From NCBI GenBank assembly GCA_947624835.1, contig CANQLX010000003.1:1-63528 (forward strand): a stretch of 63,528 nucleotides of DNA. Direction: 5' to 3'. Within the stretch, counting starts at the first letter, position 1. Each line of letters opens with the position of its first letter. A program made the position numbers and the translations under genes. The notes under the pieces are model-generated. The model saw only the letters and a list, made by a program, of their open reading frames with translations, did not search any database and was not told where the DNA came from. The stretch is from an uncultured Clostridia bacterium (GTDB lineage Bacteria; Bacillota; Clostridia; Oscillospirales; Acutalibacteraceae). Positions 9,153 to 36,639 of the stretch are shown here, in pieces.

Positions 9153-10349
9153 ATGCTGACGTTAGACAAAATATATCATGCCTCCTATGTACTTAAGGAG
9201 GTTATCCGCCCCACGGATATGATAAAGGCAAAGAATCTATCGGACGAATGTGAGATTTACCTTAAAACGGAGAATTTACAGGTTACAGGTGCATTCAAGG
9301 CGAGGGGAGCCTATTATAAGATTTCTCAGCTTACAGAGGAAGAAAAGAAAAAGGGTGTTATAGCCTGCTCTGCCGGTAATCATGCCCAGGGAGTCGCACT
9401 TGCTGCCGCTCACCACAACATAAAGGCCCTTATATGTATCCCAAATTCCGCCCCCATATCCAAGGTTGAGGCAACAAAAAGCTACGGTGCTGAGGTTTGT
9501 CTTGTCGAGGGTACTTATGATGATGCTCATGACAAATCGGTTGAGCTTCAAAAGGAAACAGGGGCCACATTTATACACCCCTTTGATGATGAGATGGTTA
9601 TTGCGGGTCAGGGTACCATAGGGCTTGAAATTCTCGACCAGCTTCCCGATGTTGATGCGGTAATCGTACCTATAGGCGGCGGTGGTCTTATAAGCGGTGT
9701 CGCTTATGCAATAAAATCGCTTAATCCCGATGTCAAGGTTTACGGTGTTCAGTCCGCAGGTGCTCCGTCTATGTATCTTTCGCTTGCACATGACAGTATA
9801 GAAACACTTGATGCTGTCAATACTTTTGCTGACGGTATAGCAGTAAAGACTCCGGGAGAGCTTACATTTGACCTTTGTAAGAAATATGTTGATGAGATAA
9901 TCACAGTTACCGATGATGAGGTTGCAACTGCAATACTTACACTTATTGAAAAGCAAAAGCTTATTTCCGAGGGTGCCGGAGCTGTGTCCGTTGCAGCCGC
10001 CCTGTTCAGCAAGCTTCCCATAAAGGGCAAGAAGGTATGCTGCCTTGTATCGGGAGGAAATATTGATGTTACAATACTTTCAAGAGTAATTGACAGGGGT
10101 CTGCAAAAAACCGGCAGACTTGCCGAATTTACCATTGCTCTCACCGATAAGCCGGGTGAGCTTCAGACAGTGTCTAAAATAATATCAAGGCTCGGAGCGA
10201 ATGTTGTAGCTGTAAGTCACGACAGAGCGGATCTTAATACGGATATTAATTCCTGCTATCTCCGTCTTTCGCTTGAAACCAGAAACCATGAGCATATACA
10301 GAAAATTAAGGACGAGCTTGCCAAAAAAGGATACCGTATAGTTCAGTAA
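9153..10349 (+). CDS. ilvA: Threonine ammonia-lyase (threonine dehydratase)
   Basis: A 398-residue PLP enzyme that deaminates threonine (or serine) through an enamine to 2-oxobutanoate (or pyruvate). AAAGGAG precedes ATG 9153. The PLP lysine lies in FKARGA near residue 48, with SAGNHAQGVALAA and the phosphate-binding GGGGLISG downstream. Residues about 325-398 are a single ACT domain (ALTDKPGELQTVSKII), the short-regulatory form typical of Clostridia. The catabolic (tdcB-like) and biosynthetic roles cannot be separated from sequence. Downstream ridA removes the reactive enamine/imine this enzyme makes, with one other gene between. Confidence 0.93.
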   Translation: MLTLDKIYHASYVLKEVIRPTDMIKAKNLSDECEIYLKTENLQVTGAFKARGAYYKISQLTEEEKKKGVIACSAGNHAQGVALAAAHHNIKALICIPNSAPISKVEATKSYGAEVCLVEGTYDDAHDKSVELQKETGATFIHPFDDEMVIAGQGTIGLEILDQLPDVDAVIVPIGGGGLISGVAYAIKSLNPDVKVYGVQSAGAPSMYLSLAHDSIETLDAVNTFADGIAVKTPGELTFDLCKKYVDEIITVTDDEVATAILTLIEKQKLISEGAGAVSVAAALFSKLPIKGKKVCCLVSGGNIDVTILSRVIDRGLQKTGRLAEFTIALTDKPGELQTVSKIISRLGANVVAVSHDRADLNTDINSCYLRLSLETRNHEHIQKIKDELAKKGYRIVQ

Positions 10350-10402
10350 TTTATTGATTTGGATTTAATTAAAGACTCTATTGATTGTGCGGAGGTGGCG
10401 GA

Positions 10403-11506
10403 ATGGGAAAGGTCAGAAAGGGCATCGGAGTTTTTCTGTGGCTTATATCTCTTATTTCCGTTTGTGCGGTCGTATGCCGGAGTCTGTTTAATATTAATTT
10501 TTTCAAAGAAAAGGAAGAATCCGTGGAGGAAAGTATTCCCGACGGTGTGCCGACAATAGAATGGAACAACGTTTCTCCCGAAAAATCATATGAAGAATTA
10601 TCAGTGCTTCTCAGTAACATGGAGTCGGAAGTTGTTGTGTTGAACTGTGATGTGAATCCCGAATGGGAAGATGTATGTATGGAGAACTTTTGGGTCGACA
10701 GCTTCAATATCAGCGGAGTGAACGGTGGAAAAGTAAAAACCTTTAACTTTAAATTCAAGGATGATGCTGCCGATAACAAAGAGATGCAGGCACAGGTTGA
10801 AAAAGAAGCAGATGAGATAATTGCCCTTATTCCTGAGAATGCGAGTGATTATGAAAAAACACTCATAATTCATGATGAGCTTATAAAGAGAATAGAATAT
10901 GATGAGAGTGTAAGGCTTAAACACAGCCATGATATATACGGTGCCTTCGTTGACCACAGGGCGGTATGTCAGGGTTACACATATGCCATGGTGTATATTG
11001 CAAAGAGGATAGGTCTTAAGTGTGAAGAATTATCTTCGCAGACCCATATTTGGAACAAGATGCCCGGTTTTGACAGCGGTGAGTGTTATATTGATATAAC
11101 ATGGGACGATATTGACAGGTCGGATGCCAACGGTGACCCGTATGTGATACATGACAATTTCGGACTTTCAAAGGAGGAAATGGAAAGGCTTTCCGAACAT
11201 CAGCCTCTTGGAGATGAAAAGGATTCAACGGTAAAAGGCTCTGTAGGAGATAATTTTTTCAAAAGGAACGGCTGGTATATTCCCAAAGGTGACACGGCAG
11301 TATTGGAGCTTGCGGTAAAGGAACAGCTCGAAAGCGGAAGCAATACAGTTGAGCTGCGTTTTGAAGATAAAGCGGATTATGCTTCTGCAAGGGATACGGT
11401 TGAAGAAATGCTGAGAAGGATGGGATACAAGGACGCATATATTTCATGGCAAAATGAAAGTCTGCTTATATATACGGTGGGACTTAATCCGCCCACAGAT
11501 GAGTGA
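10403..11506 (+). CDS. Membrane-anchored transglutaminase-like protein
   Basis: A 367-residue protein. GGAGGTGG just upstream selects ATG 10403. One hydrophobic helix (about 7-28) acts as signal or anchor. The middle carries a transglutaminase/protease-like core with the expected triad in order: Cys in AVCQGYT, His in SQTHIWN and Asp in YIDITWDD (about 190-245). In Firmicutes such proteins are usually extracytoplasmic with unknown substrates. The C-terminal ~90 residues are unassigned. It sits between ilvA and ridA with 53-nt gaps and no terminator before it, so co-transcription is likely although no functional link is obvious. Confidence 0.82.
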   Translation: MGKVRKGIGVFLWLISLISVCAVVCRSLFNINFFKEKEESVEESIPDGVPTIEWNNVSPEKSYEELSVLLSNMESEVVVLNCDVNPEWEDVCMENFWVDSFNISGVNGGKVKTFNFKFKDDAADNKEMQAQVEKEADEIIALIPENASDYEKTLIIHDELIKRIEYDESVRLKHSHDIYGAFVDHRAVCQGYTYAMVYIAKRIGLKCEELSSQTHIWNKMPGFDSGECYIDITWDDIDRSDANGDPYVIHDNFGLSKEEMERLSEHQPLGDEKDSTVKGSVGDNFFKRNGWYIPKGDTAVLELAVKEQLESGSNTVELRFEDKADYASARDTVEEMLRRMGYKDAYISWQNESLLIYTVGLNPPTDE

Positions 11507-20137: not shown

Positions 20138-20174
20138 TTCGTTTTACTTTTAATTATAGTGAAGAAATTATTAA

Positions 20175-20203
20175 TTGACAGAATACTTATGTTATCGTAT
20201 AAT
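20175..20203 (+). promoter_or_regulatory. Promoter of the CotH lipoprotein gene
   Basis: A perfect TTGACA (20175-20180), 17-nt spacer and TATAAT (20198-20203). It lies inside the longest open frame, which supports the later start at 20258. Confidence 0.88.
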
Positions 20204-20257
20204 CGAATTGTAGGTATATCGGAATTTATTATAATTAAGAAGGAAGGCGTAATAATT

Positions 20258-21838
20258 ATGAAAAGGAAGTTGTCGGTCATACTTTCAATTATACTAACGG
20301 CACTTTCTGTTTCTGCCTGCGGTGGCTCGGATTCTTCTACCGCAAGCAGAACACAGGGTTCCGAAAGCAGTATAGGTTCTTCAGCACAGGAACAGGCGGA
20401 CGAAACTAAAAATGATGAGGGAAGTAAAGAGGATTCCGCTTCTGCTGAAAATACCGGGGATAACAGCGGTGTGGGTGATACATCGATAGGCGGTGAATCG
20501 GTGTATAGTGAACTTTTCAGTCTTGACAGTAAGGTTACAATAGAAATAACGATGTCAAAAAGTGAAATGGATAAAATGGACAGTGATTATTATAAATATA
20601 AAGAAAAAAATACAAAATCGCCGATTTACAGAAAAGCTAATGCTGTTATTACAGTTAATGGAAAAAGTTATACCGTAGAGGAAGTCGGAATACGTGCAAA
20701 GGGTAACCTTTCGATCCTTCCCGTTTATGAGGAGGATTCGGAAAATCTCAATCTTTCACATTATAAATTAAGCTTTAATGAAACATTTGATGATGAAAAC
20801 TATTACGGCAGCGACGTTAGGGTATGGAAGAGTACCGAAGAAAGAAATGCAAGAAAAAACAGACGCTTTGCGACTTTGAAGAAGCTTGACATAAAATGGA
20901 ACAGAAATTATGACAATACATACATACGAGAATTATATGCCTCGGAAATGTTCAGACAAAGCGGGGTTCTTTCACAGAAAATCGGTCTTTCACAGCTAAA
21001 GTTCAATGACAATAATTACGGTGTTATGACAATTTATGAACCGATAGATGAAATTTTCCTCGAACGTAATCTGCCCGCTTCGGCTCTCGGAGGGGATCTC
21101 TATAAGGTGGGATGGACGTATTCTCCCGCAAACTATGTAGAAAATCAGGTTACAATAGGAATAACAGATGAAGACAGTGGGTCAAAATATAATTTTGATC
21201 TTAAGACAAATGAGAAAACCTCCAATAATGAAAAGCTTGTAAATTTTCTTAAGGTTATAAATTCGGATCCAACACAATCTGAACTGGAGGCTGTGCTTGA
21301 TACGGATTATTTTGCAAAATTCCTTGCGGCGTATTATTTTGCAGGGGATCCCGATGATATAAGAAATAATTATAACAACCACTATATCTATTTCCGTAAG
21401 GATAATGGAAAGGCTGTATTTATCCCGTATGATAATGACCGGACTCTCGGAATTACAAAGGGATATAACCCTGACGGAACGGGAATGACAGGTCAGTCAC
21501 CGTATTCCAACCGTGCAGTGGGTGCAAGGCAGCTTCAAGCAAATCCACTTATAAAGCTTGCAATCAAGAACGGGAGTTTTCTTGAAAAAAAATATACCGC
21601 TGCCCTGAAGGAGGTTGCGGAATTGTCCGTATGGGATACGTCAAAATTTGAGGCAGAATACAATAAGGCTAAAACCAATTATGAGAGTTGTGTACAGCCG
21701 GGCATAACCTTTGCGAATGCAGACAATGAATTTAAATTCAGTCTTGACGGAGTATATTCGTCCGGCGATGACTCAAATATGTCCTTTTCGGATTATGTCA
21801 CACGGATAATGAGTACATATAAGAAATATGCAAAATAA
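20258..21838 (+). CDS. CotH kinase-family lipoprotein
   Basis: A 526-residue exported protein. AAGGAAGG precedes ATG 20258. A lipoprotein signal ends in the lipobox LSVSAC near residue 20, and a Ser/Glu-rich linker runs to about residue 85. The CotH domain follows: VGIRAKGNLS, KLSFNE, DNTYIRELYASEMFRQSG, YGVMTIYEPIDE and IPYDNDRTLG. CotH proteins are atypical protein kinases of spore coats; in gut Clostridia, CotH-domain proteins are also found on the cell surface, including in cellulosome-related contexts. The conserved Arg/Lys-Gly-Asn and Asp-Asn-Asp segments are kept. It has its own promoter and precedes the glycan operon, but is probably transcribed separately. Confidence 0.87.
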   Translation: MKRKLSVILSIILTALSVSACGGSDSSTASRTQGSESSIGSSAQEQADETKNDEGSKEDSASAENTGDNSGVGDTSIGGESVYSELFSLDSKVTIEITMSKSEMDKMDSDYYKYKEKNTKSPIYRKANAVITVNGKSYTVEEVGIRAKGNLSILPVYEEDSENLNLSHYKLSFNETFDDENYYGSDVRVWKSTEERNARKNRRFATLKKLDIKWNRNYDNTYIRELYASEMFRQSGVLSQKIGLSQLKFNDNNYGVMTIYEPIDEIFLERNLPASALGGDLYKVGWTYSPANYVENQVTIGITDEDSGSKYNFDLKTNEKTSNNEKLVNFLKVINSDPTQSELEAVLDTDYFAKFLAAYYFAGDPDDIRNNYNNHYIYFRKDNGKAVFIPYDNDRTLGITKGYNPDGTGMTGQSPYSNRAVGARQLQANPLIKLAIKNGSFLEKKYTAALKEVAELSVWDTSKFEAEYNKAKTNYESCVQPGITFANADNEFKFSLDGVYSSGDDSNMSFSDYVTRIMSTYKKYAK

Positions 21839-24049: not shown

Positions 24050-24083
24050 GTTCTGTAATATACTTTTGGTATGGTGTTTAAGT

Positions 24084-25283
24084 ATGGAGGAAACATTTTT
24101 TCAAAAGCTTCAGCGTGTTAAGCCCGGAGATATAGGTCATATATTCCTGTTCATATTTGCATTGCCGATATCATTTGTTTACAGACTTTTCCGAAAGGAT
24201 TTGTGGCTGATTTGTGATAATAAAAACGAGGCAAGGGATAACGGGTTTTATCTTTTTAGATATATAAGACAGAATTATCCCGAACAGGATGTGGTATATG
24301 CCATAAATAAGCACTCGCCTGACTGTGCAAAGGTCAAGTCTTTGGGCAGGGTTGTAAATTACGGCAGCTTTTTGCATTGGATACTGTATCTTGCCGCTAA
24401 AAAAAATATAAGTTCACAAAAGGGCGGAAAGCCTGATGCGGCAGTATGTTATTTTCTTGAAGTAAATCGGATTCTGAAAAATACACGTATTTTTTTGCAG
24501 CACGGTATTATAAAGGATGATATGCCATGGCTGTATTATGAAAATACTATGATGAGGATGTTCGTATGCAGTACACAAAGAGAATGGGAATATGTCAGCG
24601 AAAAATACGGATATCCTGATGGGTACGTTAAAAAACTGGGTATTTGCAGACTTGACGGACTGCATGATATAAAAATAAGGGAAAATCAGATTTTGCTTAT
24701 GCCAACATGGCGGAGCTGGATAGCAACCCCGACCTCGGCATCTTATGACATTGAGGATATATCGGATTTTACAAGCACAGAATATTTTAGGGGCTGGAAT
24801 GAATTTCTGAGCAGCGAAAGACTGCATGATATACTTGCGGAAAATAATCTTAAGCTTGTGTTTTATCCTCATAGGGATATGCAGCCTTTCTTGAAATATT
24901 TCAACATAAATGATGATAATATAACAGTGGCAAAATGGCCGGAGTATGATGTTCAGCAGCTTTTGAAGGAGTCAGCCTATCTTATTACCGATTATTCAAG
25001 TATAGCTATGGATTTCGCATATATGAAAAAAAGACTTATGTATTATCAGTTTGATTATGAGGATTTTCGCAAAGGGCAATACCCTGAGGGATATTTCAGT
25101 TATGAGGATGACGGCTTCGGTCCCGTTTGTTACAGTCTTAGCGATGCACTGAGCGAGATCGAAACAGCAGTAAAAGAAAAATTTGCAAACAAAGAAAAAT
25201 ATCTGAAAATGCATGATGAGTTTTTTGATTTATATGATAAAAATAATTGTGAGCGTAATTATAGAGCTATTAAGGGGTTATAA
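24084..25283 (+). CDS. CDP-glycerol glycerophosphotransferase family protein (TagF/TagB-like)
   Basis: A 399-residue, probably peripheral membrane enzyme that transfers polyol-phosphate from a CDP-activated donor to a teichoic-acid-like acceptor. The family's histidines appear in FLQHGIIKDD and VFYPHRDMQPF, with LMPTWRSWI between and the donor-binding LITDYSSIAMDFAYMKK near the C-terminus. YSSIAMDF and YPEGYFSYED-DGFGP match the C-terminal half of the fusion protein at 28.7 kb. ATG 24084 has only a weak ribosome binding site, so the start is uncertain. It argues for a phosphate-containing polymer. Confidence 0.9.
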   Translation: MEETFFQKLQRVKPGDIGHIFLFIFALPISFVYRLFRKDLWLICDNKNEARDNGFYLFRYIRQNYPEQDVVYAINKHSPDCAKVKSLGRVVNYGSFLHWILYLAAKKNISSQKGGKPDAAVCYFLEVNRILKNTRIFLQHGIIKDDMPWLYYENTMMRMFVCSTQREWEYVSEKYGYPDGYVKKLGICRLDGLHDIKIRENQILLMPTWRSWIATPTSASYDIEDISDFTSTEYFRGWNEFLSSERLHDILAENNLKLVFYPHRDMQPFLKYFNINDDNITVAKWPEYDVQQLLKESAYLITDYSSIAMDFAYMKKRLMYYQFDYEDFRKGQYPEGYFSYEDDGFGPVCYSLSDALSEIETAVKEKFANKEKYLKMHDEFFDLYDKNNCERNYRAIKGL

Positions 25284-25286
25284 TAT

Positions 25287-26297
25287 ATGTCAGAAGAAAA
25301 AATTGATTTTGTTATCGCTTGGGTAGACGGTAATGATCCTTTGTGGCAGGCTGAAAAGGCAAAATACGATAATTCTGCGGTAATGAAAGACAGTAATACG
25401 ACCGTAAGATACCGTGATTGGGATAACCTCAGATATTGGTTCAGGTCGGTGGAAAAATTTGCTCCGTGGGTGAACAAGATACACTTTATAACATGGGGGC
25501 ATATACCTCCATGGCTTGATGCCGGACACCCTAAGATCAATATTGTAAATCACCATGATTATATCCCTGAAAAATATCTCCCGACCTTCAGTTCGCATAC
25601 AATAGAGCTGAATATTCACCGTATAGACGGTCTTTCGGATAAATTTGTTTATTTTAATGATGATATGTTTATAACTAAGCCTGTAACGTCCGAGGATTTC
25701 TTTAAGGACGGACTGCCGTGTGATACATTTGGACTTAACTGTATTTATTTTGGGCGTAACAGTGCGGGGCATTTCAATGGCTCAAACATGGAGGTTATAA
25801 ATACCGAGTTTGAAAACGAAAAAAGTAAGATAATGAAACGTGATTTTTCAAAATGGTTCAGTGTTAAAAACGGTCCGAAAAATGTTATGAAAAGTTTTCT
25901 TCTTGCAGCGTGGGAATGGTTTCCGGGTTTTAACTATGATCATCTGCCTTCGGATCTTCTCAAAAAGACCTATGAGAAAGTATGGGATAAATACTATAAT
26001 ATCCTTGACAAAACCTGTATGGATAAATTCAGAAGGGAATCCAATGTAAACCAGTGGCTTTTTAAATATTGGCAGTTTTGTGAGGGAAATTATAAGGTTC
26101 GTTCATATAAATTCGGTAAGGTGTTCCATATAGAGGAGGATAACTTTGAAAGTGCCTGCAGAGCCATTACCGGACAGAAATATAAAATGATTTGTATAAA
26201 CGATACATCCGATACAAAAAATTTTGAAGAAAAAAGGTTAAGGATAAATGAGTGCTTTAATTCGATTTTATCCTGTAAATCTTCGTATGAAATTTAG
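25287..26297 (+). CDS. Stealth family phosphotransferase (first copy)
   Basis: A 336-residue cytoplasmic protein of the Stealth family, whose characterised members (for example meningococcal CsaB) are hexose-1-phosphoryltransferases that build capsules with phosphodiester links. The conserved regions are in order: CR1 KIDFVIAWVDGNDPLW (5-20), CR2 VRYRDWDNLRYWFRSVEKFA and WGHIPPWL, CR3 IHRIDGLSDKFVYFNDDMF with the NDD acids, and CR4 SNVNQWLFKYWQF. It begins three nt after the previous stop. About 60% of residues look shared with the second copy at 27.6 kb (visual estimate), so the pair probably arose by duplication and makes two different linkages. Confidence 0.92.
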   Translation: MSEEKIDFVIAWVDGNDPLWQAEKAKYDNSAVMKDSNTTVRYRDWDNLRYWFRSVEKFAPWVNKIHFITWGHIPPWLDAGHPKINIVNHHDYIPEKYLPTFSSHTIELNIHRIDGLSDKFVYFNDDMFITKPVTSEDFFKDGLPCDTFGLNCIYFGRNSAGHFNGSNMEVINTEFENEKSKIMKRDFSKWFSVKNGPKNVMKSFLLAAWEWFPGFNYDHLPSDLLKKTYEKVWDKYYNILDKTCMDKFRRESNVNQWLFKYWQFCEGNYKVRSYKFGKVFHIEEDNFESACRAITGQKYKMICINDTSDTKNFEEKRLRINECFNSILSCKSSYEI

Positions 26298-26310
26298 GAG
26301 GACATAAAGG

Positions 26311-27462
26311 GTGACAGACGTTTTTTCAAAAAAGGATACACTGACGGTTAAGGGTGTAGCTATAATATTCCTTGTATTTTATCACTGTTTTTCATCTGTT
26401 GACAGACTTTGCGGATATAATGTTGACTTCGGTTTACTTTCGCAAAAAAATGCAATGTATATATTTGAAAGTATGAATATATGTGTTGGAATGTTCGCTT
26501 TTCTGTCGTCGTACGGTCTTACAAGGGGAATTATACAAAAATATAAATCCTTTGATCTGAATAAGAATGATATTTCGGTTTTTTTGGTAAAAAGAACCGT
26601 GTCCCTTCTGGGATCGTTCTTTATACCGTATATTATTTGCGTTGTTCCGACTTTGCTGTTGACTTCTTATAATCCGTACGGTGACGGTATAGGATTTGTT
26701 CTTAACCTCGCCGCTGATATGTTTGGTATTGCAGGACTTATAGGCTCGAAAATGATGATAGGAACATGGTGGTATATGAGCTTTGCTTTTGTAATAATTT
26801 TCCTTGTTCCTTTTACGATAAAGCTTTATAAGCATTTTGGCATTTTTTGTACGGTTCCGTTTATTCTGGTACCGATACTGTTAAATCAGGATTTTTTCTC
26901 GGCGGGCGGTCTTCAAAATATGACAAGGTGGCTGCTCACTATACCGTTAGGTGTAATTATGGCGGATCTCGAAATATTTGAGCGTCTGAAAAAATGCAGT
27001 GTGACTCACAATAAATATGTAAGTAAGCTGATAAAGTTTGTTGTTTTAACAGTGCTGCTTGCAGCCTTGGTAATTTTCAGAAGATCGGACTGGTGCAAAA
27101 GCTATTTTTATTATTTTATCAGTTCACTTCTTCCGGTATTTTTTATATATTGGCTTTACGAGTTTATATGCGGAGTACCTGTTATAAACCATATACTTGG
27201 TTTTTTGGGTAAACATTCGTCAAATATATTTTTTATTCACACATTTGTCAGACTTGTATGGTTTAAGGATGCAGCATACTCCATAGGTAATTGTTTGGCA
27301 ATATTCGGCTTTGTGTTTGGTATTTCTTTAGTGCTTTCATTTTTTGTTTTCTTTCTCCAATGGTTTATACGGTGGAATAAATTTACAAAATTCCTTTCCG
27401 ACAGACTGTCAAAATTTCAGGGCAGGCTTTATGGGGGCAGTGAGGCAGCAACCGATACCTGA
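26311..27462 (+). CDS. Membrane acyltransferase, acyltransferase-3 family
   Basis: A 383-residue integral membrane protein with about ten hydrophobic helices. AGGAGG precedes GTG 26311. The N-terminus TLTVKGVAIIFLVFYHCFSS carries the catalytic-type histidine of the family after the first helix; FIHTFVRLVWFKD lies near the end. Acyltransferase-3 proteins O-acetylate or O-succinylate surface polysaccharides from the cytoplasmic side or across the membrane. It stands between the two Stealth genes. It is a different mechanism from the downstream MBOAT, so the operon seems to carry two acylation routes. Confidence 0.88.
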   Translation: MTDVFSKKDTLTVKGVAIIFLVFYHCFSSVDRLCGYNVDFGLLSQKNAMYIFESMNICVGMFAFLSSYGLTRGIIQKYKSFDLNKNDISVFLVKRTVSLLGSFFIPYIICVVPTLLLTSYNPYGDGIGFVLNLAADMFGIAGLIGSKMMIGTWWYMSFAFVIIFLVPFTIKLYKHFGIFCTVPFILVPILLNQDFFSAGGLQNMTRWLLTIPLGVIMADLEIFERLKKCSVTHNKYVSKLIKFVVLTVLLAALVIFRRSDWCKSYFYYFISSLLPVFFIYWLYEFICGVPVINHILGFLGKHSSNIFFIHTFVRLVWFKDAAYSIGNCLAIFGFVFGISLVLSFFVFFLQWFIRWNKFTKFLSDRLSKFQGRLYGGSEAATDT

Positions 27463-27602
27463 TACGGGACAGCAATGCTGAAAGGGGACTGCGGACAGAG
27501 GATAAAAGATTGTTCTTTTGGCGAAATTTGTCGTAAATGTTTTTTTACAGTAGATATTTTGATTTTTTTTTCGGGAATAAAAAAGGAAGGGCTGTGCCAT
27601 AT

Positions 27603-28601
27603 ATGGATAAAATTGATTTTGTTATGATATGGGTTGATGGAAACGATCCGGAATGGCAAAAAGAAAAAAATTTGTATGACGCCTCAAATGATAAGGGGGA
27701 CAGCACAGAGATACGTTACAGAAGCTGGGATAATTTACAGTATTGGTTCAGAGGGGTAGAAAAATTTGCTCCTTGGGTGAATAAGATACATTTTGTTACA
27801 TGGGGACATCTTCCGCCGTGGTTGGATAGGAATAATCCTAAGCTTAACATTGTAAACCATAAGGACTATATTCCGGAAAAGTATTTGCCGACGTTTAATG
27901 CCAATACCATAGAGCTGAATCTTCATAGAATAAATGGACTTGCAGAACAGTTCGTCTATTTTAATGATGATATGTTTGTGACAGCACCTGTAAGGCCGGA
28001 GGATTTTTTCAAAAATGGCCATCCTATGGATACCTACGGCTTGGACTGTATTTTCTTCGGTAAAAAAAGTGCCGGATTTTTCAACGGAAATGATTTGGAG
28101 ATTATAAATACCTATTTTGATAAAAATAAAGTGTTTAAAACAAATGTGAGAAGTAAATGGTTCAGCCTAAAAAACGGTGTTAAACGGGTTATCAAAACAT
28201 CAGCATTGAATATGTGGCCATGGTTTCCCGGGATTTATTATAATCATCTTCCGAGCAATTTTCTGAAAAGTACATTTGAAAAAATATGGGAGCTTGAGGG
28301 TGAAACACTTGATCTTACCTGTATGGACAGGTTCAGGACAAAATCGAACTGTAATCAGTGGCTTATGAAATTCTGGCAGCTTTGTGAGGGAGAGGCAATT
28401 CCGAGAAGTATAAAAATCGGCAGGTGCTTTCATATAAAGGATAATATTTTTACAGAAATGCTGGAATCTGTTTCAACCGGCAGGTATAAGCTTATATGTG
28501 TCAATGACACAGCAGGAACCAGTAATTTTGATTTGCAAAAGCAGCAGGTTATAGAGGCTTTTGATAGGCTGCTGCCTAAAAAATCAAATTTTGAACTGTA
28601 G
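27603..28601 (+). CDS. Stealth family phosphotransferase (second copy)
   Basis: A 332-residue paralogue of the protein at 25.3 kb. AAGGAAGG selects ATG 27603. All four Stealth regions are intact: KIDFVMIWVDGNDPEW, IRYRSWDNLQYWFRGVEKFA, LHRINGLAEQFVYFNDDMF and SNCNQWLMKFWQL. Changes between the copies concentrate after CR3 (for example HPMDTYGLDCIFFGKKSA against LPCDTFGLNCIYFGRNSA), which fits different sugar specificity. A 140-nt gap without a terminator precedes it. The presence of two copies suggests a repeating unit with two phosphodiester-linked sugars. Confidence 0.92.
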   Translation: MDKIDFVMIWVDGNDPEWQKEKNLYDASNDKGDSTEIRYRSWDNLQYWFRGVEKFAPWVNKIHFVTWGHLPPWLDRNNPKLNIVNHKDYIPEKYLPTFNANTIELNLHRINGLAEQFVYFNDDMFVTAPVRPEDFFKNGHPMDTYGLDCIFFGKKSAGFFNGNDLEIINTYFDKNKVFKTNVRSKWFSLKNGVKRVIKTSALNMWPWFPGIYYNHLPSNFLKSTFEKIWELEGETLDLTCMDRFRTKSNCNQWLMKFWQLCEGEAIPRSIKIGRCFHIKDNIFTEMLESVSTGRYKLICVNDTAGTSNFDLQKQQVIEAFDRLLPKKSNFEL

Positions 28602-28732
28602 TTTCCCGAATGGGATATATCAAAGCGGTTGTAATATTTTGAGTATTAAAGCAGGTAGAAATATTTGTGGATAGTATGCTTGCTTAATTAACATAAAACG
28701 AACGAAAACCCGATGGCAGGAGGATGTTATAA

Positions 28733-31429
28733 ATGGATTCTAAAATAATTAATCACTATGAGGCAGATGAGTATAAATATTTGTTTTCTGTTGTTATACC
28801 TGTATATAATGTCGAGAATTATATACAGGAAACGATTGAATCGGTGATTAATCAGTCAGTTGGATATAAAAATATACAGATAATTCTTGTTAATGACGGC
28901 AGTCCTGATAATAGTGAAAAGATATGTCTAAAATATAAACAAAAATATCCTGATAATATTGTGTATGTTAAACAGGAAAATGCCGGTGTCAGTGCCGCAA
29001 GAAATACAGGTATAAAGTATATAGAGGGAAAATATGTTAATTTTCTCGACTCGGATGACTGTTGGGAATCCTCAGCATTTGAATATGTTGCAAAATTTTT
29101 TGATGAGCATTATCAGGAAACCGACGTTGTCGGTGCCAGAAAAAAATTTTTTGATGCAAAGACAGGTTTTCATTATCTTGATTATAAATTTTCATATTCG
29201 AGAGTGATAGACCTTTTGGCAAATTATGAAATGATACAGCTTGATGTTACAGGAGCCTTTATAAAGTCTTCGGCAATCGGTGATCTGCGTTTTTCTACAA
29301 AATTGAAATACGGAGAGGACGGTCAGTTTGTCAATTCAATTATTCTTAATAAATGTACTCTCGGTGTAGTGAGAGAAGCTGTTCACCTTTACCGTAAGCG
29401 TCAGGATGAGTCTTCGGCACTGCAAAATGAGTTGAAGTCCTACAGCTATTATTTTGATTCACCTGAATATTTTCATAAGGATCTGATAAATCAGTCCAAA
29501 AAGAAATACGGAAGAGTGCTTGAGTTTATACAGTACATTGTGATGTATGATATAAAATGGCGTATGTCAAAAAATCTTGATGACGCATTGCCTCTTGATG
29601 AACTTACAAAATACAAAAATATTATAAACAGTATTCTTTTGGATATTGATGATAGGATTATTCTTACGCTAAAGGGATTGGGAATAGGTCAGAAAATATA
29701 TGCCCTCAATATCAAGTATAATTGTGATGTTACTCCCAAGTTCGCATATGATCACGGAAAACTTATCTTCAATAATATTCCGGTTATGAATATGCTGGAT
29801 TTTAAATCGTCATTGATTATCAGATTTATGGATTTTGCAGATGACGTTCTGTATATGGAAGGTAATGATAACCTTTTTATAAACTGGGACAGCTATAAAT
29901 TCTATGCCGTTGCGGACGGAAAAACTTATTATCCCGAATTGTTTGAAACGGATAAATATCAAATCAAAATACTGGGCTTCACCGCCTTTAAGAGTAAGGG
30001 ATTTAAATTCAGGATTCCGTTGGAAAAGGGAAAGGATCACAGTATAGAATTTTTTGTCTTATTTAATGATACCTATTGCACAAAAATTCATTTCTCAATG
30101 GGCAAATTTTCCCATATTCCCACATTAGGAGGAAATTACGGATATACCTGTATGAATGATTATATTATACAGAAAAATGGAAAAATGCTCGTATTTACCG
30201 GATACAGTAAAAGAAAACATTTCGACCGTGAAATGAAATATTGGAAATATCTCAGAAGCAGGAAAAGGGGATATCTGATAAAATCACGCTTGCTCTATTT
30301 TATGATGCGTCCGTTCAATAAAGGTGTATGGCTTATTTCCGACAGACCGAATAAGTCCGGTGATAACGGAGAACACCTTTTCAAATATATAAGCAGTGTG
30401 AAACATCCGGGAATAAAACCGTATTTTGTGCTTCAGAAGGATAGCGAAGATTATAAAAAAATGTCCGGAATCGGTAAAGTTATTGATTTTAACTCAGTTA
30501 AATTCCGTCTTATGACTTTGCTGAGCGAAAATGTGGTTTCTTCTCAGGCAAGTGAATATGTTCTCAATCCGTACGGTGGGGATATAAATTATATGTCGGA
30601 TTTGTACAACTACAATTTTGTATTTTTACAGCACGGAATAACCAAGGATGATATTTCAGGCTGGCTCAATAAAATCAATAAAAATATAAAGCTTTTCGTT
30701 ACTGCCGGAAGACCTGAATACAGGTCAATCCTTGACGGTGAGTATTTTTACGGTGAAAATGTAGTGAAGCTTACCGGGTTTCCCCGTTTTGATAATCTGA
30801 CAAGAATGTCAAAAAATGTTAAAAAAAGAGTTTTGATAATCCCTACATGGAGAAAGTCTTTGAGTAAATGTGTCGATCCTGCAACAGATACCAGCGTATA
30901 TTATGACGGATTCAAGGAGAGTGAATTTTTTAAATTTTATAACAGCCTTATAAATGATGAAAGGCTTAAATCATGTATGAAAAAACACGGCTATGAGGGA
31001 TTATTCTGTCTTCACCCCCTTTTCGCCCAACAATACGTTGATTTTGACGAAAACGAAGTGTTTAAGGTTAATAACGGTTATGTTGACTATCAGAAGCAGT
31101 TTGCAGAATGTGCATTGCTCGTCACAGATTATTCAAGCGTATTTTTTGATTTCGGATATTTGAAAAAACCTGTAATTTATTGTCAATTTGATAAGGAAAC
31201 ATTCTTTACGGAACATTCCTATTCCGAGGGCTATTTCAGCTATGAAAAGAATGGTTTCGGACCCGTTTGCTACGATCTTGAAAATACAGTTGATGAAATT
31301 GTCAGTGTAATTGAAAACGATTGTAAAAATGATCCTGAATATATTAAGCGTGTTGAAGATTTTTATCCTTATTTTGACGAGAACAGTTGCCGCCGTGTCT
31401 ATGAGGCTATTAAGGAGATTACGCAATAA
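28733..31429 (+). CDS. Fusion of GT2 glycosyltransferase and CDP-glycerol glycerophosphotransferase
   Basis: An 898-residue bifunctional enzyme. GGAGGATG precedes ATG 28733. Residues about 18-300 are a GT2 domain: FSVVIPVYNVENYIQETIES, LVNDGSPDNS, NAGVSAARNTGI and FLDSDDC (the DxD-type motif). About 300-510 is an unassigned, possibly beta-rich linker. Residues about 530-898 are a TagF-like domain with FLQHGITKDDISGW, LIIPTWRKSLS, FCLHPLF and LLVTDYSSVFFDFGYLKK. Such fusions make sugar plus polyol-phosphate repeats by one polypeptide, as in some teichoic acid and capsule polymerases. The gap after it carries a secondary promoter. Confidence 0.92.
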   Translation: MDSKIINHYEADEYKYLFSVVIPVYNVENYIQETIESVINQSVGYKNIQIILVNDGSPDNSEKICLKYKQKYPDNIVYVKQENAGVSAARNTGIKYIEGKYVNFLDSDDCWESSAFEYVAKFFDEHYQETDVVGARKKFFDAKTGFHYLDYKFSYSRVIDLLANYEMIQLDVTGAFIKSSAIGDLRFSTKLKYGEDGQFVNSIILNKCTLGVVREAVHLYRKRQDESSALQNELKSYSYYFDSPEYFHKDLINQSKKKYGRVLEFIQYIVMYDIKWRMSKNLDDALPLDELTKYKNIINSILLDIDDRIILTLKGLGIGQKIYALNIKYNCDVTPKFAYDHGKLIFNNIPVMNMLDFKSSLIIRFMDFADDVLYMEGNDNLFINWDSYKFYAVADGKTYYPELFETDKYQIKILGFTAFKSKGFKFRIPLEKGKDHSIEFFVLFNDTYCTKIHFSMGKFSHIPTLGGNYGYTCMNDYIIQKNGKMLVFTGYSKRKHFDREMKYWKYLRSRKRGYLIKSRLLYFMMRPFNKGVWLISDRPNKSGDNGEHLFKYISSVKHPGIKPYFVLQKDSEDYKKMSGIGKVIDFNSVKFRLMTLLSENVVSSQASEYVLNPYGGDINYMSDLYNYNFVFLQHGITKDDISGWLNKINKNIKLFVTAGRPEYRSILDGEYFYGENVVKLTGFPRFDNLTRMSKNVKKRVLIIPTWRKSLSKCVDPATDTSVYYDGFKESEFFKFYNSLINDERLKSCMKKHGYEGLFCLHPLFAQQYVDFDENEVFKVNNGYVDYQKQFAECALLVTDYSSVFFDFGYLKKPVIYCQFDKETFFTEHSYSEGYFSYEKNGFGPVCYDLENTVDEIVSVIENDCKNDPEYIKRVEDFYPYFDENSCRRVYEAIKEITQ

Positions 31430-31544: not shown

Positions 31545-31573
31545 TTGATATTATTCAATAGGTGGAGTAAAAT
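31545..31573 (+). promoter_or_regulatory. Internal promoter ahead of the MBOAT-DHHW-FkbH-ACP genes
   Basis: TTGATA (31545-31550), 17-nt spacer and TAAAAT (31568-31573), in a 183-bp gap with no terminator. The four decoration genes could therefore be expressed independently of the polymerase genes. Confidence 0.65.
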
Positions 31574-31612: not shown

Positions 31613-33034
31613 ATGGTATTTTCGTCTTTGTTCTTTTTGTATGTGTTTTTGCCGATTTGTCTTGTATGTTATTATTTGTGCAAGACAATCGAGCAGAAAA
31701 ATATTGTTCTTATTATATCATCGCTTGTATTTTACGCATGGGGAGAGCCTGTATGGGTTTGCTTGCTTGTTTTTAGTGCATTTGTAAACTGGTTTGCTTC
31801 AAGACTTATTGGTTTATTTGATGTGGAGTGGAGAAAAAAGCTCGTTGCGGCAGCTGCGATAATATTTGATCTCGGACTTCTTATCGTATTTAAATACAGT
31901 GGTTTTATTGTGGAAAATGTCAATGCTGTGACAGGACTAGGAATACCTGTTCCGAATATAGTTATGCCTATCGGTATAAGCTTCTTTACATTTCAGGCAG
32001 TATCATATATTATGGATTGCCTGTGGGGAACAGTAGAACCTCAGAAAAAATATATTAACTTCCTTCTTTATTTGTCGCTCTTTCCGCAGCTTGTCGCAGG
32101 ACCTATTGTTAGATACAGTGTTATCGCTGAAGAAATATCAAACAGAAAGATTAGGGTTGTTGATATCAGTGAGGGAGCAAAAAGAGCAATGCTCGGTATT
32201 GCCAAAAAGGTTATAATTGCAAATAATCTTTATGCTGTGGTTGAACAGTTCTTTGGGACAGATATAACAAATCTTTCATTCCTCGGAACATGGTACACCG
32301 TAATACTCTATTCGCTTTATGTTTACTTCGACTTTAGCGGATATTCGGATATTGCTATAGGTTTGGGAAGAATGTTTGGTTTCCATTTCAATGAAAACTT
32401 TAATTATCCGTTTATATGTAAGACTATAAGTGAATTTTGGCAGAGGTGGCATATATCCCTCAGCTCATTTTTCAGGGATTATCTTTTCTATGTACCTATT
32501 TTCGGTAAGCCGAGAAAGTATTTTAATCTGTTTCTTGTATGGTTCTGTACAGGTCTGTGGCATGGTGCTTCATGGAATTTTATTTTCTGGGGTCTGTATT
32601 TTGGAATATTCATTTTTATAGAAACAAAAATCGGCAAGAAAAGGCTTAAAAAATGGAATAAGGTATGGACACACATATACAGTAAAATTATTATTGTTAT
32701 AGGTTTTGGTATTTTCTATTTTACCGACTTGAGTCAACTTGGCAAATTCTTTATGAATATTTCGGGTATTAGTATGATAACTAATGGCAATGAATTTGCT
32801 GATGTTCTGACAAGGGATTCGATGCTTAATAATCTTTTCCTGATTATTTTCGCAATCGTTGTATCTATGCCTATTCTTCAGAAGATTAAATATTTCTTCT
32901 ATAAATGGGGAAACAATGTTGTATATGCAGTCGGACAAATCGGCGGAACGCTTATTTGTTGCACATTGCTGATGATATCAAGTATATTGCTTGTGGACAA
33001 TACAAACAATCCGTTTTTGTATTTCCGTTTTTGA
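31613..33034 (+). CDS. MBOAT family membrane O-acyltransferase (DltB/AlgI-like)
   Basis: A 473-residue polytopic membrane protein. The start is VFSSLFFLYVFLPICLVCYY, as in DltB, AlgI and PatA. ISFFTFQAVSYIMDC, the FRDYLFYVPIFG loop and the catalytic-type histidine in CTGLWHGASWNFIFWG (about 320-335) are all present. MBOAT proteins of this branch take an acyl group on the inside and hand it to an extracytoplasmic partner for transfer to a surface glycan; DltB uses an acylated carrier protein. A DHHW partner, an ACP and an FkbH loading enzyme follow immediately. Confidence 0.94.
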   Translation: MVFSSLFFLYVFLPICLVCYYLCKTIEQKNIVLIISSLVFYAWGEPVWVCLLVFSAFVNWFASRLIGLFDVEWRKKLVAAAAIIFDLGLLIVFKYSGFIVENVNAVTGLGIPVPNIVMPIGISFFTFQAVSYIMDCLWGTVEPQKKYINFLLYLSLFPQLVAGPIVRYSVIAEEISNRKIRVVDISEGAKRAMLGIAKKVIIANNLYAVVEQFFGTDITNLSFLGTWYTVILYSLYVYFDFSGYSDIAIGLGRMFGFHFNENFNYPFICKTISEFWQRWHISLSSFFRDYLFYVPIFGKPRKYFNLFLVWFCTGLWHGASWNFIFWGLYFGIFIFIETKIGKKRLKKWNKVWTHIYSKIIIVIGFGIFYFTDLSQLGKFFMNISGISMITNGNEFADVLTRDSMLNNLFLIIFAIVVSMPILQKIKYFFYKWGNNVVYAVGQIGGTLICCTLLMISSILLVDNTNNPFLYFRF

Positions 33035-33049
33035 TAAGAGGAGTTTTAG

Positions 33050-34534
33050 ATGGATAATAAAGAGGCTCATACTGATACAGGACGTAAAAGAAAAAAGGGA
33101 CTTAATAATATTCCAAGGAAAGGTGTGGAGCATGGCTTCGCGGTTATATCGCTTATGATAACTGTGCCGATATTTTTCACAGCCGTTTTGCTTATGATTG
33201 TCCTGCCACGTCCCAAGGTATCGGAAATTGAAAAACGTAAGCTTGCGGAGATGCCTGAATTTACCTTTGATTCATATTTTTCAGGGGAATATACCGCTGA
33301 TGTTGCAGAGCATTATGACGACACTGTTCCGTACCGTGATGATCTGAAAAACGTTGGATATAGCTTTAAAACATCATTCGGAATACATACCGAGGACGAG
33401 GTTAAGGTTGTAGGTAAGCCATCGGTTGTTCCGAAGCCAGTTGATGATAATAAAAATGAACAGTCGGAAAATACAGTTCCTGATGCTGATGAAAATTCAA
33501 TAACCGAATCTCAGCAGGAAAATGAAAGTTCAGCTAAAGAAAGTCAGGCGGAACAGAGCAAGTCTGAGTCCTCTCAGGAATCCTCTGAGGAAGAGGAGGT
33601 TACTGTTGAGAACGGTATAATTGTTGTCAAGAGTAATGGTCACTACCGTGCACTTGAGCTTTTTGGCGGAGGAAGCGGAAGTACATATGCGGAAGCCTTG
33701 AATAATTTCCATAAGGATCTCGGTGACAGTGTTAAGATTTATTCAATGGTAGCACCTCTTGCAAGTGAATATTACACTCCGAGCAACTATTCTGATTTTA
33801 ATGCGAGTCAAAAGGACAGTATAAAGAGTATTGAAAGCAAGCTTGATAAGGATATAGTGTCAATAGATATTACGGATGTTTTGGGAGAACATAAGAGTGA
33901 AGAAATATATTTCCGCACCGACCACCACTGGACGCCCCTCGGAGCATACTATGCGGCAGAGAGCTTTGCGAAGGCAGCAGGAATAAGCTTCAAGGAGCTC
34001 AGTACCTATAAGAAGAATGATATGGAAGGCTTTGTAGGTACAATGTATGGTTTCACAGGGGATGCAAATCTTAATAATGATCCGGAGGTATTTTCGTATT
34101 ATACCCCCGATAATATTGATAAATGTATGACCTATTACTACTCTACGGATTTCACATACACCGGCAAGGGCAACTTCTTTAACGGTGTTGGAGATATAAG
34201 AAGTGCTTATCTCACCTTTATGGGCGGGGATGAGCAGGTGGTTAAGGTGAAAACAAATATAAAAAACGGCAAAAAGCTTCTTATTGTTAAGGATAGCTAT
34301 GGAAATGCCATACCCGGATATCTTTTTGGATCATATGAAGAGATATATGTTGTTGATATGAGGTACTTTAAGCTTAATCTTGTTGACTTTGTAAAGCAGA
34401 ATAATGTTACGGATATGCTTTTTGCCATGGTATCGTATTCTGCTGTTGGGGATAATGCGGATAATCTGGAAAATCTCAGAACTCAGGTCAAGGGTAAGAA
34501 AATTGTTGACGAAGGTCTGAAGGATGAGGATTAA
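33050..34534 (+). CDS. DHHW family protein, AlgX/AlgJ- or DltD-like acetyl/acyl transfer partner
   Basis: A 494-residue membrane-anchored protein with its main domain outside the cell. One transmembrane helix (about 29-52) follows a basic N-terminus. A low-complexity Ser/Gln/Glu linker covers about 125-185. The C-terminal SGNH-like domain has the family signature FRTDHHWTPLGAYYA (about 285-299) and KDSYGNAIPGYL (about 422-433), with the catalytic-type serine in DSYG. Proteins of this family accept the acyl group from MBOAT proteins and place it on an exported polymer. It lies 15 nt after the MBOAT gene. Confidence 0.9.
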   Translation: MDNKEAHTDTGRKRKKGLNNIPRKGVEHGFAVISLMITVPIFFTAVLLMIVLPRPKVSEIEKRKLAEMPEFTFDSYFSGEYTADVAEHYDDTVPYRDDLKNVGYSFKTSFGIHTEDEVKVVGKPSVVPKPVDDNKNEQSENTVPDADENSITESQQENESSAKESQAEQSKSESSQESSEEEEVTVENGIIVVKSNGHYRALELFGGGSGSTYAEALNNFHKDLGDSVKIYSMVAPLASEYYTPSNYSDFNASQKDSIKSIESKLDKDIVSIDITDVLGEHKSEEIYFRTDHHWTPLGAYYAAESFAKAAGISFKELSTYKKNDMEGFVGTMYGFTGDANLNNDPEVFSYYTPDNIDKCMTYYYSTDFTYTGKGNFFNGVGDIRSAYLTFMGGDEQVVKVKTNIKNGKKLLIVKDSYGNAIPGYLFGSYEEIYVVDMRYFKLNLVDFVKQNNVTDMLFAMVSYSAVGDNADNLENLRTQVKGKKIVDEGLKDED

Positions 34535-34580
34535 TTTAAAAATTAAATATAATTAAATGAATTTTAAATGTGGAGGATAT

Positions 34581-36377
34581 ATGAAAGAACTTGAATATCC
34601 GTTTGACAGTGACTGTATAATTAAAAAGAAAAGGTCAATTAAACGTACTCTTATTGCCGACGGCAAGGACAGGCTTAGGAAAAAAATAGCCGTATTCGGC
34701 GGATCAACCACACATGATATTGTTGTCTGTCTTGAACTGTTTTTGCTTGATCAGGGAATTGAGCCTGAATTTTATGAATCCGAATATGCACAGTATTGGC
34801 AGGACGCCATGTTTCCGAGTGATGAGCTTCTAAATTTTTCACCCGATCTTGTTTATATTCATACAACGAGCCGCAATATCGTAAATTATCCCTCAGTATC
34901 CGAAGACAGGGAACAGGTTGCTGAAAAGCTGGAGAGGGAATATGCAAAATTTGAGCAGATGTGGAAAAAGATAACGGAAACGTATCATTGTCCTATAATA
35001 CAAAATAATTTTGAAATGCCGTTTTACAGGCTTATGGGAAATAGAGATTGCTCGGATTACAGGGGACGCTCCAATTTTGTGAGCAGGCTGAACCAATTAT
35101 TTTATGAGTATGCGGAAAAAAATGAGGGTTTTTACATAAATGATATAAATTTTATTTCCGCTTCATACGGTCTGAGGCAGTGGAGTGACCCATCATACTG
35201 GAATATGTATAAATATGCCATGTGTACGGAGGCTATACCGGAATTTTCATTTAATCTGTCAAATATTATAAAATCTGTATTCGGAAAAAATAAAAAAGCA
35301 CTTGCCCTAGATCTTGACAATACCCTTTGGGGCGGTGTTGTAGGCGATGATGGTGTTGACGGAATACAGATAGGTCAGGAAACGGGTGTTTCACAATCGT
35401 ATTATGAGTTCCAGTGTTATGTCAAGTCGCTTAAAGATATAGGTGTAATCCTTACGGTATGTTCAAAGAACGACCGTGAAAACGCAATAGCTGGTCTTAG
35501 TCACCCCGAAGGGGCACTGAAACCGGAGGATTTCATTATAATAAAGGCGAACTGGGAGAATAAGGACAGAAATATAATAGAAACGGCAAATGAGCTTAAT
35601 ATTTTTCCTGATGCCATAGTATTTGCCGATGATAACCCGGCTGAAAGAGAAATTGTCCATACACAGGTTCAGGGAGTTGCGGTGCCGAAGATGGACAGTG
35701 TTGAAAATTATATCATAAATATTGACAGAAGCGGATATTTTGAAGTAACCAATTTCAGTACGGATGATATCAAAAGAAATGAGATGTATAAAGCGAATGC
35801 GGAAAGGACCGCTCAGCAGGCTTCCTTTGCGGATTACGGCGAATATTTATTAAGTCTTGATATGAAGGCTGTTATAGATGATTTTATACCTGTATATCTG
35901 CAAAGAATAACGCAGCTCACGAATAAGAGCAACCAATTCAATGTCACAACAAAGCGTTATACTGCAACTGAAATGGAGGATGTATATAAAAGCGATGAAT
36001 ATATACGCCTGTACGGTAAGCTTACGGATAAGTTCGGTGATAACGGTGTTGTATCGGTAGTTATAGGCAGGATAGACGGAGATATACTTAATATAGATTT
36101 ATGGATAATGAGCTGCAGGGTTCTGAAAAGAGATATGGAGCTTGCAATGCTTGACAGGCTTGTGGAGCGTGCAGCTGAAAGAGGTATAAAGAAGGTGAGG
36201 GGATATTATTATCCCACAGCCAAGAATAAAATGGTACGGGAGCTTTTCGGAGGTTTTGGTTTTGAAAAAATTAAAGAGGACTACGAGGGTAATACCGTAT
36301 GGGAGCTTAATATTGACGGATATGAGAAAAAGAATAATGTAATTACAGTTGAAGATAATTCTTCACTTACAAATTAA
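34581..36377 (+). CDS. FkbH-like HAD-IIIC protein with C-terminal GNAT-like domain
   Basis: A 598-residue cytoplasmic enzyme. GGAGGATAT selects ATG 34581. Residues about 30-200 form an SGNH-like region (IAVFGGSTTHDI). About 235-380 are a HAD-IIIC domain with LALDLDNTLWGGVVGDDG (Asp nucleophile near 243) and FADDNPAEREIV. The C-terminus looks like a GNAT fold with NQFNVTTKRYT and MSCRVLKRDMELAMLD. Characterised FkbH proteins take 1,3-bisphosphoglycerate, remove the phosphate and load D-glycerate onto an ACP. An ACP gene is next, 19 nt away. No polyketide synthase or later FkbI/FkbG-type enzymes are present, so the glyceryl-ACP would serve a different reaction here. Confidence 0.9.
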   Translation: MKELEYPFDSDCIIKKKRSIKRTLIADGKDRLRKKIAVFGGSTTHDIVVCLELFLLDQGIEPEFYESEYAQYWQDAMFPSDELLNFSPDLVYIHTTSRNIVNYPSVSEDREQVAEKLEREYAKFEQMWKKITETYHCPIIQNNFEMPFYRLMGNRDCSDYRGRSNFVSRLNQLFYEYAEKNEGFYINDINFISASYGLRQWSDPSYWNMYKYAMCTEAIPEFSFNLSNIIKSVFGKNKKALALDLDNTLWGGVVGDDGVDGIQIGQETGVSQSYYEFQCYVKSLKDIGVILTVCSKNDRENAIAGLSHPEGALKPEDFIIIKANWENKDRNIIETANELNIFPDAIVFADDNPAEREIVHTQVQGVAVPKMDSVENYIINIDRSGYFEVTNFSTDDIKRNEMYKANAERTAQQASFADYGEYLLSLDMKAVIDDFIPVYLQRITQLTNKSNQFNVTTKRYTATEMEDVYKSDEYIRLYGKLTDKFGDNGVVSVVIGRIDGDILNIDLWIMSCRVLKRDMELAMLDRLVERAAERGIKKVRGYYYPTAKNKMVRELFGGFGFEKIKEDYEGNTVWELNIDGYEKKNNVITVEDNSSLTN

Positions 36378-36396
36378 ATACAAAGGGGATTTTATT

Positions 36397-36639
36397 ATGG
36401 ATTCTAAGGCAATTTATGAAAGACTTAACAAGGTGTTCAGAGATGTATTTGATGATGACGATATCACGGTTAATGCAAATACGACTGCGAACGATATCGA
36501 GGACTGGGACAGCCTTGAACATATAACACTTATGGCAGCTGTTCAGAAGGAATTTAAGGTAAAGTTCTCAATGGGAGAAATTGCCTCAATGAAGAATGTA
36601 GGCGAAATGGTACAAATAATTGAAAAACGTGCTAAATGA
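36397..36639 (+). CDS. Acyl carrier protein of the glycan operon
   Basis: An 80-residue acidic four-helix carrier. AAAGGGG precedes ATG 36397; a longer frame from 36349 overlaps the previous gene and has no ribosome binding site. The phosphopantetheine serine is Ser39 in DWDSLEHITL. It differs from a fatty-acid ACP in its DSL context and Ser/Met-rich helix III (FSMGEIASMKN), as expected of a dedicated carrier. Last gene of the operon, followed by a terminator. It is the likely acceptor of the FkbH-like loading enzyme and the donor to the MBOAT protein. Confidence 0.93.
   Translation: MDSKAIYERLNKVFRDVFDDDDITVNANTTANDIEDWDSLEHITLMAAVQKEFKVKFSMGEIASMKNVGEMVQIIEKRAK

Follow-up and report, generated by a model that had tools for sequence, protein, structure and literature searches.

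A conserved FkbH-carrier protein-MBOAT-DHHW cassette in gut Clostridia as a candidate Dlt-like acyl-export system

How a membrane acyltransferase and an envelope protein of the kinds that esterify surface polymers come to share an operon with a loader and a carrier of the kinds that serve polyketide synthesis is the question raised by four adjacent genes in the DNA of an uncultured Clostridia bacterium of the Acutalibacteraceae. The stretch analysed (GenBank assembly GCA_947624835.1, contig CANQLX010000003.1, positions 1 to 63,528; hereafter the window) encodes in succession an MBOAT-family protein, a DHHW-family protein, an FkbH-like protein with a HAD domain and an acyl carrier protein (ACP). 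The reading favored here, to which a probability of roughly 60% is assigned, is that they form a self-contained acyl-export system, similar in its working to the Dlt system and made of different parts, in which a glyceryl group would be loaded by FkbH and exported by way of the MBOAT and DHHW proteins.

From what is known of its family, FkbH would take 1,3-bisphosphoglycerate, its HAD domain would remove a phosphate, and the glyceryl group would be loaded on the phosphopantetheine of the ACP. Glyceryl-ACP would then bind the MBOAT protein from the cytoplasm, at a loop whose sequence appears remodelled for a carrier protein. By analogy with MBOAT-SGNH pairs, the acyl group would next be passed through the membrane by the MBOAT and received by the DHHW protein, the enzyme expected to esterify a surface molecule with it. 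The initial annotation had proposed that FkbH replaces the loader DltA, and this is very likely because of co-inheritance, a loop signature that held on 31 new loci, and the position of the MBOAT in a sequence tree; FkbH also occupies the place that an AMP-ligase holds in other ACP-MBOAT loci. The cargo is predicted by analogy with FkbH chemistry: in polyketide pathways FkbH makes glyceryl-S-ACP from 1,3-bisphosphoglycerate, a step stated as likely (PMC7489565; this and the other papers are cited from excerpts).

Co-inheritance of the four genes

Among the 391 genomes of the class that were surveyed, MBOAT, DHHW and FkbH proteins were found above cut-off in 252, 181 and 52, respectively. A profile built for the MBOAT subfamily of the window, termed type A, scored above 700 bits in 10 of these genomes, with the next best value at 554. 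In eight of the ten, the genes for MBOAT, DHHW, FkbH and ACP are contiguous (the window and loci L043, L080, L085, L086, L089, L090 and L092). As for the other two, the contig of G379 ends within the DHHW gene (L254), and in G265 the type-A MBOAT lies alone amid unrelated genes (L253), with DHHW-DHHW-FkbH and an FkbH end followed by ACP on two other contigs (L056, L060). None of the ten genomes contradicts co-inheritance.

A similar picture is given by the 80 best named relatives as ranked by FkbH, a non-random sample with several members on short contigs. The ACP gene stands directly behind FkbH in 64 and within 3 kb in 70, a same-strand MBOAT lies within 6 kb of FkbH in 58, and the full four-gene order is present in 22, including Ruminococcus flavefaciens 007c (in L167 and L168, both among the 22, the MBOAT gene is cut by the contig end). 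For the 46 relatives whose flanks reach 6 kb or more on each side, the counts are 42 for an ACP within 3 kb, 32 for the MBOAT and 12 for the four-gene order. Four loci (L184, L192, L202 and L209) show DHHW-DHHW-FkbH-ACP with no MBOAT within 6 kb and so resemble G265.

Since the same order recurs in 8 of the 391 class genomes, the window included, and in 22 of the 80 relatives, the four-gene grouping is more than chance. The co-occurrence of the four families, for which the initial annotation had proposed a survey, is thus found, and the cassette is a conserved unit of Ruminococcus-related gut bacteria.

The loop signature and the origin of the MBOAT

In DltB, the horizontal helix HC (Met302, Val305, Ile306, Met309, Lys312) contacts the carrier protein DltC (PMC11035591). 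The segment that follows RWH...RDY in the MBOAT of the window aligns to this helix in DltB chains of the Protein Data Bank (PDB), and at the same position ordinary Clostridia MBOATs have a [PS]LGG[NS]-like loop. Rows were compared for 156 MBOATs, defined as linked when FkbH lies on the same strand within 6 kb; L117, which duplicates L063, and MBOAT frames shorter than 430 amino acids were left out of the counts. The loop is absent from 75 of 81 linked MBOATs versus 2 of 75 unlinked ones. Both of the latter (L200, L211) are in FkbH loci just past the 6-kb limit. Among the six linked MBOATs that bear the loop, L177 and L237 are second MBOATs in loci that also have a loop-less one, and L173 is matched by the pattern used for counting and not by a second pattern tied to the RWH segment. 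The source genome itself has a second MBOAT-DHHW pair (L033, 5606-9260 on contig C1), which keeps the PLGGN loop and has no adjacent FkbH or ACP.

Because the ordinary sample had been drawn from the best Pfam scores, which introduces a bias, the comparison was extended to 31 MBOATs with low scores, taken from genomes in which FkbH had no match. Of 34 genomes chosen, G175, G206 and G347 were left aside because what matched in them was only fragmentary or interrupted by stops; secondary matches were also omitted for G068 and G389. All 26 loop-less MBOATs in this fresh set have an ACP within 730 bp, and 14 also have an AMP-ligase, whereas none of the five loop-bearing ones is beside an ACP. The ACP search, with a profile built from short ACPs, found none in the 40 control loci L126-L165. 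Many of the 26 loop-less loci (L291-L316, those with an AMP-ligase being Dlt-like) have a segment resembling FYP(I/L)SVSKPMLK, and L312-L315 form a separate, long-branched group with FMPLGKLL and an ACP 0.3-0.7 kb away. Since loop-less MBOATs in genomes lacking FkbH are all near an ACP, 14 of them with an AMP-ligase, the segment tracks carrier proteins whichever loader is used, and the comparison supports the view that the MBOAT of the window bears a signature of carrier-protein use.

How this MBOAT came to have the signature is suggested by a tree of 78 MBOAT rows from which the loop columns were left out. Type A is one supported group (17 rows, including L183) among the loop-bearing MBOATs, and most FkbH-linked and AMP-ligase-linked MBOATs form a second group of 32 rows. 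Support is good for the main split and only moderate for the exact position of type A. A single clade of all loop-less rows is rejected by the approximately unbiased test (p 1.3e-12, a guide value, as the tree was seen before the test). We take the loop-bearing side of the tree to be the AlgI/PatA type. Because the tree puts the MBOAT of the window among loop-bearing MBOATs, carrier use by type A probably arose independently. The FkbH proteins of type-A loci are 61-71% identical to that of the window, those of other aligned MBOAT-linked loci 54-64% (35% in L071), and the ACPs of the two sets of FkbH-MBOAT loci are closely similar; judged by sequence, one kind of FkbH-ACP pair is joined to two MBOAT lineages.

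Known systems and competing explanations

The Dlt system of teichoic acid D-alanylation (DltA-DltB-DltC-DltD) likewise combines a cytoplasmic loader, a small carrier protein, an MBOAT and a further envelope protein. It too has a stand-alone carrier gene in the MBOAT operon, and the carrier-contact segment of DltB is also not of the PLGGN type. The cassette differs in having FkbH for the AMP-ligase DltA, a DHHW protein for DltD, and an MBOAT of another lineage. Identification of this MBOAT as DltB was rejected, as the DltB model, whose cut-off is 375 bits, gives it 153 and the ACP-less paralogue in the same genome little less, 142; because the seven MBOATs scanned, of all types, score 138-161 bits, so that carrier-linked and ordinary ones are not separated, the model was dropped as evidence. 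DltD was likewise rejected for the DHHW protein, for which Pfam gives DHHW and ALGX and no DltD match. Of the Dlt-like system originally proposed, then, the carrier-protein logic stands, with the loop signature and the ACP in the operon, while the parts are not DltB and DltD; the cassette resembles Dlt in its logic without belonging to the Dlt family. As its expected glyceryl cargo is without an amine, it would, unlike D-alanylation, add no positive charge.

Two other kinds of system share one half of the cassette each. PatA1/PatB1 of Bacillus cereus is an MBOAT-DHHW pair in which PatB1 acetylates the secondary cell wall polymer (PMC9487903). Common to this pair, to AlgI/AlgX and to the cassette are an MBOAT and a DHHW/AlgX-like SGNH protein with catalytic motifs, and the MBOAT of the window falls among the loop-bearing kind found in pairs such as L033. 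The cassette differs by its FkbH and ACP, no dedicated carrier or loader being described for those systems in the excerpts, and by the replacement of the PLGGN loop seen in Clostridia homologues with YVPIFGKPRKY. AlgI itself has the PLGGN loop. The other half, an FkbH with a partner stand-alone ACP, is found in the tetronate and methoxymalonyl-ACP pathways, where glyceryl-S-ACP is also expected (PMC7489565); there the unit enters a polyketide, whereas in the cassette FkbH and ACP are accompanied by a membrane acyltransferase and a DHHW protein.

A connection between FkbH and surface glycans is known from Campylobacter jejuni, whose flagellin glycosylation locus has the fkbH-domain gene cj1302 and whose glycan bears a glyceric acid derivative, di-O-methylglyceric acid on pseudaminic acid (PMC7099621, PMC3068675). 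The gene may be linked to that derivative; the excerpts differ from the present case in mentioning no MBOAT or DHHW export step. Within the PubMed Central literature, outside which most subscription papers lie, no description of FkbH with an MBOAT export system was found, in keeping with the earlier statement that no characterised pathway of this composition is known. FkbH and MBOAT are co-mentioned there only in natural-product work, not for this gene set; FkbH and DltB occur together in none of the matches listed; FkbH with surface and glycan leads only to the C. jejuni flagellar glycans; and nothing was found on bryostatin FkbH with lactate.

Whether the carrier delivers plain glyceryl is a separate issue from whether there is a carrier. 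A MaoC-like dehydratase and a FabG-like SDR occur in related FkbH-ACP-MBOAT loci (e.g. L042, L188, L195, L217, L218, L219, L241), and a methylmalonyl-CoA-epimerase-like protein lies between ACP and MBOAT in L035, L197, L214, L216 and L233. These assignments come from Pfam and NCBIfam scans of L042, with a MaoC/HadB-like dehydratase and SDR reductase region at 10216-11378, and of L035, with a VOC protein nearest methylmalonyl-CoA epimerase at 10001-10414; the other loci were found by phmmer with these two. Enzymes of such kinds work on acyl thioesters, and their presence also counts in favor of the main reading; they might convert glyceryl-ACP to lactyl-ACP or alter its configuration, so that the same system might carry a lactyl group or a different C3 acid, with FkbH itself or enzymes encoded elsewhere in the genome as its source. 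For the window this is unlikely, as the four-gene cassette itself is without such an enzyme and its FkbH retains the HAD aspartates. An improbable alternative of a different nature would split the cassette into two systems side by side, with MBOAT and DHHW performing O-acetylation from acetyl-CoA in the manner of AlgI and PatB1, and FkbH and ACP feeding some other cytoplasmic product. MBOAT and DHHW are indeed far commoner than FkbH in the 391 genomes, the same genome has the L033 pair, and B. cereus PatA1/PatB1 exemplifies such a pair (PMC9487903). However, the type-A MBOAT co-occurs with FkbH and ACP even where they are unlinked (G265), loss of the PLGGN loop goes mostly with the presence of a carrier protein, a second, distinct MBOAT lineage is joined to FkbH-ACP pairs of the same kind, and no polyketide synthase is seen in the source genome, which is 85% complete. 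The earlier statement that polyketide genes are missing is borne out as far as that completeness allows, the single ketosynthase match being in a 413-amino-acid frame; one phosphopantetheinyl transferase match is also present.

The acceptor raises a further alternative, that the ACP-bound group goes from the MBOAT to a membrane lipid or protein, with the DHHW protein trimming or relaying it and no wall polymer being modified. Polymer genes are beside few relatives of the cassette, as this would predict, but PatB1, the DHHW enzyme that has been characterised, has a secondary cell wall polymer as its acceptor (PMC9487903) and the Ser/Glu- or Thr/Pro-rich linkers of DHHW proteins would suit reaching into the wall, so that this explanation is considered very improbable. 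For transfer onto the glycerophosphate polymer whose genes adjoin the cassette, the acceptor first envisaged, there is no local support, as a glycerophosphotransferase-type gene is upstream in only 3 of the 22 four-gene relatives (L166, L170, L174), although several of the 22 have short flanks. Open reading frames picked mechanically upstream of the MBOAT gene in ten four-gene relatives gave three with unrelated Pfam families and seven with none. Upstream genes differ between genomes, so the cassette has the look of a portable module whose acceptor can hardly be read from the polymer genes that adjoin it in the window.

Several observations weigh against glyceryl export by the cassette. Loading of glycerate by FkbH is carried over to this branch from polyketide pathways. 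L084, L227 and L234 are real FkbH-linked MBOATs that keep the loop, and the linked set takes in L037, L049 and L063, which lie near short FkbH proteins of about 340-360 amino acids. The compared rows are also related: an independent-pairs test on the 156-row tree gave four pairs in agreement, none opposed and six uninformative (p 0.125). A same-strand MBOAT within 6 kb is missing from 22 of the 80 FkbH relatives, and from 14 of the 46 with flanks of at least 6 kb. Finally, a 1304-amino-acid protein encoded outside the cassette, with an AMP-ligase-like and a carrier domain, may be an alternative user of the acyl group. It is the best match to the DltA model in the source genome, where no DltA is above the family cut-off (best 265 bits versus 560); no AMP-ligase was found when the open reading frames of the cassette were scanned against Pfam.

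If export of glyceryl by the cassette is correct, it would extend bacterial envelope modification by a chemical group and an activation route that are both new, the latter fed by an intermediate of glycolysis in bacteria of the rumen and gut. A broader formulation, for which the odds appear even, is that of a second, independently evolved carrier-dependent surface acylation. An AlgI/PatA-type MBOAT would have exchanged its donor for an ACP by losing a cytoplasmic loop, FkbH would tie glycolysis to envelope esterification without an ATP-using ligase, and the related loci would be a family that exports different C3 hydroxy-acids (glyceryl, lactyl, epimers) across gut Clostridia. The loop signature provides a simple sequence rule for which bacterial MBOATs use a carrier protein and could serve to re-annotate many "O-acetyltransferases."

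Architecture of the locus and its surroundings

The families were assigned with Pfam and NCBIfam models at curated cut-offs, and all four proteins pass in Pfam (MBOAT 70 bits, DHHW 168, FkbH_N 43, PP-binding 25). The MBOAT protein (Pfam E 2.7e-19) has its catalytic histidine in a WHG motif and matches DltB chains of the PDB at E 5.7e-25 and 1.2e-24. An N-terminal hydrophobic stretch followed by a Ser/Glu-rich linker characterizes the DHHW protein (Pfam DHHW 5e-49, ALGX 5.5e-10). In the FkbH protein (TIGR01686, 252 bits; cut-off 147), an FkbH_N domain precedes the HAD domain and a C-terminal part; D252, D254 and Cys520 are invariant in a 24-row alignment, and the invariant residues are also seen in a 43-row alignment. 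The cysteine of a CSKND motif was ruled out as the acyl-accepting residue because it is missing in several rows (e.g. L078, L088). The ACP matches PP-binding at E 3e-5, above the cut-off, and no DltC model was among its NCBIfam matches.

Table 1. Positions of the cassette and associated features in the window
Feature	Position	Strand	Detail
GT2 + glycerophosphotransferase protein	28733-31429	+	Pfam; upstream, outside the conserved cassette; possible local polymer context
MBOAT open reading frame	31613-33034	+	473 amino acids
MBOAT residues 293-303, YVPIFGKPRKY	32489-32521	+	aligns with DltB helix HC; replaces the PLGGN loop
MBOAT His317	codon at 32561		catalytic; WHG
DHHW open reading frame	33050-34534	+	494 amino acids
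DHHW motif RTDHHW	33920-33931	+	DHHW codons; conserved in alignment
DHHW motif KDSYGN	34295-34297	+	Ser codon; conserved in alignment
FkbH open reading frame	34557-36377	+	606 amino acids; 597 if started at ATG 34584
FkbH HAD motif DLDNT	from 35310		D252/D254
FkbH Cys520	36114-36116		codon; SCR motif
ACP open reading frame	36397-36639	+	80 amino acids
ACP Ser39	36511-36513		codon; phosphopantetheine site in WDSLEH
Terminator-like stem-loop	36652-36683	+	12-pair stem then T6; downstream of ACP

The initial annotation described four adjacent genes with short gaps, a terminator after the ACP gene and an internal promoter of their own, and the first two of these features are confirmed. The gaps are 15 nucleotides between MBOAT and DHHW, 22 between DHHW and FkbH (49 from position 34584, which is probably the real FkbH start, favored over 34557 by a GGAGG site in front of it) and 19 between FkbH and ACP, and the stem-loop with its run of T residues fits a terminator. 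The promoter does not hold up: promoter-like matches number 23, that at 31545-31573 among them, and chance alone would give 21.3 +/- 4.2; as such matches are not above chance, this one is by itself no evidence.

Upstream, a polymer cluster at 24066-31429 encodes two glycerophosphotransferase proteins, two Stealth proteins and an acyltransferase of the AT3 family (26311-27462); through the last of these, the local polymer may be acylated by a system of its own. A CotH kinase-like protein is encoded at 20159-21838, at the left edge of this surface-polymer cluster. Elsewhere in the source genome, the gene after the L033 pair encodes a lipoprotein-like protein in which ESSKQ/ESSEQ repeats are numerous. 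Other genes adjoin the MBOAT in related loci: ThrH (phosphoserine phosphatase/homoserine phosphotransferase) is directly behind it in L036 (11721-12329, above cut-off), L216, L228, L240 and L242, and an asparagine-synthase-like amidotransferase is near FkbH and MBOAT in L078 (9559-11448) and L188 (8471-10366).

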